From NCBI GenBank assembly GCA_029940475.1, contig JAPYUT010000013.1:1-64000 (forward strand): 64,000 nucleotides of DNA. The letters are read 5' to 3'. The notes under the pieces are model-generated. The model was given only the letters and a program-made list of their open reading frames with translations. It did not search any database and had not been told where the DNA came from. The first letter of the stretch is position 1. Each line of letters begins with the position of its first letter. The DNA is from Verrucomicrobiales bacterium (GTDB taxonomy: Bacteria; Verrucomicrobiota; Verrucomicrobiia; Verrucomicrobiales; DEV007). Positions 12,029 to 13,310 of this stretch are shown here, in pieces. Position numbers and translations under genes: made by a program.

Positions 12029-13207
12029 TTATGTTTTGTCGTCGCCAGCAACAGGCAGAGACTCAAAGGCTGCCCGGAGCGGGATCTCCCTGGATTGTCT
12101 CTGGACCGGGTTGTAGCGCGGGTAGATACCGTCAAATATTCCCCGCAGTGAGAGTGGCCTTGCTTTTGAGTTGTTGTAGGTGAGCACGATCTCAATTTCA
12201 CCTTCATAGGTAAAGTTGTCCGGACCCTCGTCAGTCAGGCGGATTTTTCCGCTGAGCAGGGCGTAGCGCAGTTTTCCGTCTGAACCTGCGGGTTCTATTG
12301 TCAGGTCCCCCTCGACCTTGCTGATCTGGTAGACTTTCTTGGTTTGCTGGCTGGTACGCTCCATGACTCCCGGCGGATAGACCTGGGATAGCCATTTTTT
12401 CAGCAAGGAAGCCTCTATGGTGCTCTTCTTGCGCGGATAATTTAGCGGTTTCCAGTCTTTCCTGGTGAGGGCAACCGCCTCCACAACCGGCGCGCGGTAG
12501 GCTATCATGCGTTGCTCAAGCAGGCGCACGAAGACGCGGATACCGGATTGTTCAAGATCCGGCAGCTTCAGCGGATGTTCCTTGGTCGGTGTCCCGGTCA
12601 GATTTATTTCAGGAATGGCCTTGCCCAGTTCGCGCACGGTGTAGTCGCCCAGGGATTCACGTATTTGACCGCCCGGGAAGCGTGGCGGACCCATGCGGCG
12701 AAAGGCGTCAAACCAGTGCACGAGGTTGCCTTGCGAGTCGAGGACAGCCAGGTCGACATTGCTCTGTTTGCCGTGGAATCCGCGGCCATTGAACCCGTTG
12801 CCATTGAATTTCTGCCGCCAGACCTCGCGCACGGGTGCGGGTATGTCGGGGTCATTGCGGTGGCCGTGCCAGGAGGCGGCAATGAAAGGGCGCAGTGTGC
12901 GAACTACCTTCGGATCGATGAGCGAGGTCCCACGGACCTGTGTTGCAGTGGCTCAGCAGTGTCCCGAGGTGAGGTCGCCGTATTGCGCGTGGATAATGAC
13001 CAGAAATACCGGACGTTTTTCGAGTAGTGCCCTTTTCTGGGCTTCCTGCAGGGAGGATGCCCAGTCGATCTGGTACATTGCGAGTTCATCTGCCTGCGGG
13101 CGGAAGTCACTGTAGCGTTCGAGCACGGACTGCACTTTTGGTGTCTGTGCGGAGATGATGGCGGCGGGAACCAATGGTAAAACAAGGGCAGTTAAAAAGC
13201 GTTTCAT
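12029..13207 (-). CDS. Candidate selenoprotein: secreted thioredoxin-like protein with in-frame UGA (Cys84-Sec85)
   Basis: Two open segments in the same frame, 13207-12956 and 12952-12029, are separated only by one TGA at 12955-12953. Read through, they give 392 residues. These comprise a signal peptide (MKRFLTALVLPLVPAAIISA), a helix SSLQEAQKRALLEKRP, a thioredoxin-type strand PVFLVIIHAQ, the motif GHC-U, a segment with DPKVVRTLRPFIAASW, and a later strand VDLAVLDSQGNLVHWF. This order matches thioredoxin-like folds in which the redox residues follow the PVFLV strand. The start ATG has AAGGA 8 nt upstream. A nested hairpin begins at the UGA. The alternative is a nonsense mutation splitting an old gene. 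The C-terminal 200 residues match no family I recognise. No selABCD genes are in the window. Confidence 0.65.
12919..12955 (-). other. Bacterial SECIS-like stem-loop starting at the in-frame UGA
   Basis: On the coding (minus) strand an upper stem AGGTCC (12939-12934) / GGACCT (12930-12925) closes a 3-nt loop GTG, and a lower stem TGAGC (12955-12951) / GCTCA (12923-12919) includes the UGA itself. The apical loop begins with G and lies 19 nt after the UGA, which fits the layout I recall for bacterial SECIS elements. An alternative fold CAC-AGGTCC-GTG would show a loop very like that of E. coli fdhF. Confidence 0.55.
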
Positions 13208-13310
13208 TTTCTTGATCCTTTCGGGTGGGGGTGTGTCCGGGCAGGCAATGTTTTCTTATGGGAATTACTGGGCAACATTGGCTTTCCGGAGCGTGTAAAG
13301 TTTCTTTATT

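Follow-up and report, generated by a model that had tools for sequence, protein, structure and literature searches.

The gene at positions 12029 to 13207 on the minus strand of the 64-kb window (the whole 64,000-nucleotide stretch of DNA that was analyzed) represents a real and new selenoprotein family. This reading is supported by an in-frame UGA that is conserved across homologues, a complete selenocysteine (Sec) machinery in the same genome, a conserved hairpin downstream of the codon, and selection on both sides of it. From comparative sequence evidence it is close to certain that UGA-85 encodes Sec, although there is no direct proof of insertion, and we consider it highly probable that the gene encodes a true selenoprotein, founding a new family, with the anatomy proposed below.

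Reading frame and gene anatomy

Translation of the frame gives 392 sense or Sec codons followed by a TAA stop (12029 to 12031), and the only internal TGA is codon 85, at 12955 to 12953 (all features of the gene given here lie on the minus strand). This confirms an earlier reading made from the letters alone (here called the sequence-only reading), which had described a single TGA breaking an otherwise continuous 392-codon frame; the extent of the gene is also supported by its homologues. A Shine-Dalgarno-like AAAGGA (13216 to 13221) stands 8 nt before the ATG. Judged by eye, the N terminus (MKRF...IISA/Q; 13148 to 13207) resembles a signal peptide, and the same pattern, likewise judged by eye in the alignment, is present in full-length family members. 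It is followed by the strand PVFLVIIHAQ and by GHC, whose Cys84 (TGC, 12956 to 12958) is the vicinal partner of the putative Sec residue, U85 (12953 to 12955); after the TGA come ATATQVRG and VDLAVLDSQGNLVHWF. The elements that the sequence-only reading had placed before the UGA (signal peptide, strand, and GHC) are all present in the translation, and its claim that the two flanks form one protein is borne out by homologues at 35 to 77% identity, which retain the flanks, the frame, and the TGA.

Conservation of the UGA column and selection on its two sides

The main homologue scan covered one genome per GTDB species and used the peptide patterns [ASG]MY[RQ][IL]DWA and PVFLVIIH, with the Sec column excluded. 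It returned 22 relatives from Verrucomicrobiota and Planctomycetota, with record titles that include Roseibacillus, Kiritimatiellia, Blastopirellula, Pirellulales, and Brocadiia, and TGA stood at the Sec column in 22/22. Profile searches, which covered samples of Verrucomicrobiota, of Planctomycetota, and of the class of locus L042, added L065 to L069 and L088 to L095, all of them with TGA. Among 96 related genomes that were searched, the gene was found in three congeneric ones (64 to 75% identity) and in another genus of the same family (52% identity), each relative having one TGA in the Sec region, at the same column as in the window gene. Altogether, 36 distinct homologous loci, the window included, have TGA at exactly this column and none has a sense codon; they span Verrucomicrobiota and Planctomycetota, down to ~35% identity. 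Most of the sequences come from MAGs. Three loci in damaged assemblies (L055, L068, and L054) were counted solely for the state of the TGA column, and the profile matches L104, L111, L112, L114, and L115 were excluded as ordinary CxxC thioredoxin-like domains. No relatives were found in viral contigs.

A search for homologues with the UGA translated as Sec had been proposed in the sequence-only reading as a check, and it finds the column and both flanks conserved. Of the outcomes that it had named as refuting, neither of the two that concern homologues occurred: no family locus has an unrelated residue at the column, and no near relative was found in which a sense codon is accompanied by relaxed selection beyond it. 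The stretch GHC-U-A-x-A-x-x-x-R-G is invariant in a 19-sequence alignment that extends down to 35% identity; in the core family alignment, H83 and W113 are invariant and G115 and H116 nearly so. A planctomycete subfamily (L091 to L095; e.g., L092:1480-2595) has GHT-U, with Thr in place of Cys84, the UGA retained, and the same two-domain protein. The vicinal Cys-Sec pair that had been proposed is thus found in most members and is not universal; given the Thr-Sec subfamily, it is Sec, not the Cys-Sec pair, that is the constant residue. No homologue with Cys for Sec in the same GHC-x motif was found, nor any such form within the GHC/GHT-U family; Cys is aligned with Sec only in the more distant relatives L085 and L105.

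The median pairwise omega is 0.27 upstream of the UGA, 0.33 downstream of it, and 0.31 in the C-terminal domain, and a comparison of the window gene with L034 gives 0.18 downstream of the UGA. Judging from these ratios, purifying selection persists to the C terminus.

A SECIS-like hairpin downstream of the UGA

The excess of synonymous codon identity, computed over the whole gene in 21 sequences, reaches its maximum over codons +3 to +12 downstream of the UGA, where 0.66 was observed against 0.33 expected; the median excess elsewhere in the gene is 0.05. In 16 sequences, the conserved bases of this region form AGGUCC-G[U/G]G-GGACCU, which in the window is the bacterial-SECIS-like hairpin AGGUCC-GUG-GGACCU (12925 to 12939), with its apical loop 19 nt after the UGA. 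Within these 16 sequences, the codons CAG, GUC, and GGG are invariant, the stem third positions of these codons and of the next [A/G]CC codon never vary, and the loop Arg codon is only ever CGU or CGG (33% background), while in the Ser codon that comes next the third position is free and does vary. Every stem cell pairs (96/96). Judged against the published rules for bacterial SECIS elements (PMC13188914), the hairpin complies, with a 3-nt GUG loop, 19-nt spacing, 6 bp, and −8.0 kcal/mol. Its free energy is not clearly better than that of synonymous shuffles (mean z −0.65), dinucleotide shuffles were likewise not significant, and covariation in the stem is uninformative because the stem hardly varies.

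More divergent members have different hairpins at similar spacing. Across L050 to L053, L065 to L069, and L072 to L083, a SECIS-like hairpin lies 16 to 40 nt after the TGA, and its register and sequence shift between subfamilies while the protein motif stays constant. These shifts are a possible case for studying SECIS turnover.

Selenocysteine machinery

The sequence-only reading had asked whether the genome contains selA, selB, selD, and tRNA-Sec, and all four are present; lack of this machinery, the third outcome that it had named as refuting, did not occur. The tRNA-Sec, with anticodon UCA, scores 62.7 bits (cut-off 47) in the same assembly, and selB scores 327.6 bits and selA 483 bits in the same genome. 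The selA gene (L025, G000:C74:66997-68322) is on the same contig, ~3 kb past the end of the window and ~54 kb from the selenoprotein gene. The selD gene (L030, G000:C79:2856-3782) has an in-frame TGA of its own at the catalytic codon (CGUAAK); it is itself a selenoprotein gene and serves as an internal positive control for UGA recoding.

Matches to selA and selD were also obtained in four close relatives, some at contig ends. Further TGA-form genomes that were tested all have selA (31/31; 30 above cut-off and 1 contig-edge fragment), and in a class-wide sample selA was above cut-off in 27 of 29 TGA carriers versus 208 of 398 genomes overall (Fisher p ~1e-6). Two weak, distant TGA carriers (G956 and G1049) are without clear selA, and G1083, which carries a Cys-form relative, has no selA. 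This co-occurrence of selA with the TGA form is an indication, related genomes not being independent.

Two other readings of the codon have to be weighed against Sec. TGA is also an ordinary stop codon here, ending 16 of the 38 long ORFs of the window, and an internal GTG ORF of 267 codons is present, so that codon 85 could in principle terminate translation and leave either a pseudogene or two genes, one for an 84-residue peptide and one with an internal start. Yet 36 of 36 loci, drawn from two phyla, have the TGA, and purifying selection acts on either side of it; a pseudogene or a sequencing error was rejected on the strength of these loci, and the internal start of a two-gene arrangement would remove the conserved CUATATQVRG; we regard termination at this codon as a negligible prospect. 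The identity of the inserted residue cannot be read from sequence alone, which leaves room for another amino acid, such as Trp or Cys, to be placed at the UGA through a suppressor tRNA or an altered code. The use of UGA to terminate many genes tells against this, and the same ORF count implies site-specific recoding and rules out code reassignment. Moreover, the genome has the full set of selA, selB, selD, and tRNA-Sec, selA and the gene tend to occur together, the sense relatives show Cys (or Gly) at the site and not Trp, and the SECIS-like conservation is correctly placed. Insertion of another residue retains only a very slight chance, and Sec is the reading we adopt.

Fold and domain architecture

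An AlphaFold2 model built with the family alignment (pLDDT 84.6) predicts a thioredoxin-like domain at residues ~38 to 170 (12698 to 13096), an assignment shared by a Foldseek match to DsbH and by weak Thioredoxin_7 matches. U85 comes after strand 67-72 and directly before helix 86-95. In the model, it is at the N terminus of the first active-site helix, the position of the nucleophilic Cys of thioredoxins, in agreement with the earlier suggestion of a thioredoxin-like fold with Cys or Sec at the redox site. The best fold match in the PDB is DsbH 2ju5 (E 8e-4, probability 1.00). The C-terminal domain (residues 205 to 392; 12032 to 12595), modeled separately (pLDDT 88.7), is predicted to be mostly antiparallel beta with no recognized fold: Foldseek returned no PDB match at E<=1e-3, and PYL2, PsbO, and outer-membrane barrels were rejected as low-probability matches only.

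Comparison with known families

For the window protein, Pfam yielded no family above cut-off. PF13899 (Thioredoxin_7) is not matched by the protein itself and only weakly by 6 of 21 family members, and for the 21 members scanned against Pfam and NCBIfam (June 2026) nothing was better than its best E value of 0.002, with no family assignment. A PDB-sequence search with the protein or the alignment likewise yielded no family over the threshold. Among the 119 prokaryotic selenoprotein families catalogued in 2026 (PMC13188914 Table 1), there is no thioredoxin-fold CU family like this one, Haft and Tolstoy 2025 being covered only via its families cited there; the new families of deep-Sep also differ from the present one. 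The sequence-only reading had called the product an exported protein of an unrecognized family. Lack of recognition holds for Pfam, NCBIfam, and the 2026 catalogue, none of which has an entry covering the family, and export rests on the signal peptide seen by eye. A prior sighting under another name is possible, and candidate table S9 of the Porphyra planctomycete paper lies outside this comparison. Annotation of UGA as a stop splits such genes and has left a family that extends across two phyla without a model.

The families nearest in fold are chlamydial DsbH (2ju5), Thioredoxin_7 (PF13899), and DUF255. These are known for CxxC thiol pairs, whereas in the present family Cys or Thr stands next to Sec, a further domain is added at the C terminus, and the alignment has no CxxC motif. 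The VPGUxxT proteins (NF041382/NF041383, OS_HP5) are similar in having a thioredoxin-like domain with a Sec site, and they matched one family member at E 0.03 and the distant relative L077 at E 4e-8 over the Sec region. However, the matches amount to <=33 bits against cut-offs of 350 and 275 and involve the N-terminal part alone, and the present motif is GHCU, not VPGU; membership was rejected on the score, far under the curated cut-off, and on the absence of the motif. The Trx7/PDZ (seleno)protein NF041199 is a selenoprotein of Trx_7 type with weak local similarity, but it has a CxxU motif and a PDZ domain (PMC13188914 catalogue), and membership was rejected here too, one member reaching E 0.098 and the 300-bit cut-off not being approached.

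Adjacent Cys and Sec are shared with HgcA, SaoL, SaoC, MbdU, KCU-star, and SaoB CUxxT (PMC13188914 Table 1), but these belong to other domain families, and none is catalogued as a thioredoxin-fold protein of this architecture. The sequence-only reading had compared the pair to the GCUG of animal thioredoxin reductase. This survives as a chemical analogy, both being vicinal Cys-Sec pairs that could form a selenenylsulfide, and fails in position, fold, and context: the reductase motif is in the flexible C-terminal tail of a flavoenzyme with no homology to our protein, whereas here Sec is at a helix start in a Trx fold and the Cys is not always retained. There is no reductase domain or C-terminal GCUG in the present protein, U85 being far from the end of its 392 residues.

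Distant relatives and sigma-factor fusions

More distant profile relatives mostly have an in-frame TGA at the corresponding column, in the contexts GRC-U, ERC-U, GGC-U, AGC-U, NC-U, HC-U, GL-U, and YV-U; the HC-U relatives have lipobox-like N termini. In Planctomycetota, a GRC-UGGA group (L096, L098 to L103, and L107), an ERC-UGYA group (L108 to L110), and others (L113, L086, L072, L077, L079 to L083, and L074 to L076) are mostly exported-looking thioredoxin-fold proteins in which an in-frame TGA marks the start of the same helix. Scanned members of these groups matched no Pfam or NCBIfam selenoprotein model above cut-off, and the groups are probably several undescribed selenoprotein families. 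Between the GRC-U group and the present family, hhalign gives a probability of 99.4 and an E of 8e-22 over 248 columns; the two share the Trx domain and the second domain at least at its start.

Sense forms at the Sec column are GRS-C (L105), GRC-G (L106), and LS-C (L085). In L105:862-2865 (minus strand) and L106:550-2526 (plus strand), the same module, with Cys or Gly for Sec, is C-terminal to an ECF sigma factor and to a stretch resembling a membrane span. The Cys-form fusion comes from a genome that lacks selA. Taking these alignments together, Sec is the most constant feature, distant relatives can have Cys in its place, and the Cys before it is optional. It is plausible, though we would stop short of calling it probable, that the family lies within a large superfamily of extracytoplasmic Trx-fold selenoproteins of Planctomycetota and Verrucomicrobiota (GHC-U, GHT-U, GRC-U, ERC-U, GGC-U, and others), mostly unmodeled and with several copies in some genomes, and that the C-terminal domain and the Sec-less sigma fusions mark an unknown selenium-dependent redox or sensing pathway of the envelope where Cys seldom takes the place of Sec. 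Such a superfamily suggests that the selenoproteomes of the two phyla exceed their catalogued size.

Possible function

In the mechanism that we propose, UGA-85 would be decoded by SelB and the tRNA-Sec with anticodon UCA, guided by the hairpin with its loop 19 nt further on; the product, of 392 residues, would be exported if the signal peptide judged by eye is functional. According to the models, the mature protein would consist of a DsbH/Thioredoxin_7-like domain and then the conserved beta-rich C-terminal domain. Its most likely role, by inference, would be that of a Sec-dependent thiol/peroxide oxidoreductase outside the cytoplasm. The U85 selenolate may attack a disulfide or peroxide-type substrate, after which Cys84 would resolve the Se-S or Se-OH so formed by making a vicinal selenenylsulfide; members with Thr-Sec would presumably need a different thiol for this step, and the C-terminal domain might supply substrate or partner binding. 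With the chemistry inferred from fold and residues only, we lean slightly toward the protein acting as a Sec-dependent oxidoreductase. The constancy of Sec, which is replaceable by Cys in distant relatives and retained where Cys84 is lost (L091 to L095), together with the optional nature of Cys84, favors Sec as the nucleophile, and its likeliest setting is an oxidoreductase of the envelope, where Cys84 would be the residue that resolves locally; metal binding or redox sensing is possible.

Gene neighborhoods, which are missing for many MAG loci, include no conserved neighbor outside the genus that would indicate a substrate. Those common within the genus only (Mrp-type ATPase, sigma-54-like factor, peptidase, tRNA-dihydrouridine synthase-like, cytidine deaminase-like, and sulfatase-like, all named by eye) therefore give no operon-based function, and sulfatase-like ORFs near a few other members were judged to say little, such genomes having many of them.

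Cys-Sec might instead, together with His83 and WHGH close by, form a site for soft metals or metalloids (Hg, As, Cu, or Se), in which case the protein would be an exported metal handler and not an oxidoreductase. The conservation of H83, W113, G115, and H116 in the core family suits such a site, as does the presence of SNVD where thioredoxins usually carry cis-Pro (a placement inferred from the alignment), and several CU selenoproteins (HgcA, SaoL, and MbdU) are in organometal or metal-binding pathways (PMC13188914). However, His83 and H116 are lost in distant Sec relatives, Cys84 is Thr in one subfamily, and no metal-resistance or transport neighbors were seen, and we think metal handling unlikely. 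The sigma-factor fusions raise another possibility, that of a redox-sensing or signaling module of the cell envelope, not an enzyme, in which oxidation of U85 alters interaction with a partner. L105 and L106, which share the two-domain architecture of the present protein, make up the C-terminal portions of ECF sigma factors, after the membrane-span-like stretch, and families A3 and A5 match by profile (probability 99.4). The fused copies are without Sec, though, and no conserved regulator adjoins the present gene outside its genus, so a sensory role also appears improbable to us at present. The family offers a clean case for comparing selenium with sulfur in an exported protein, Sec never having been seen replaced by Cys within it while the neighboring Cys sometimes is. 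The Sec-less sigma-factor fusions are a testable lead on function.
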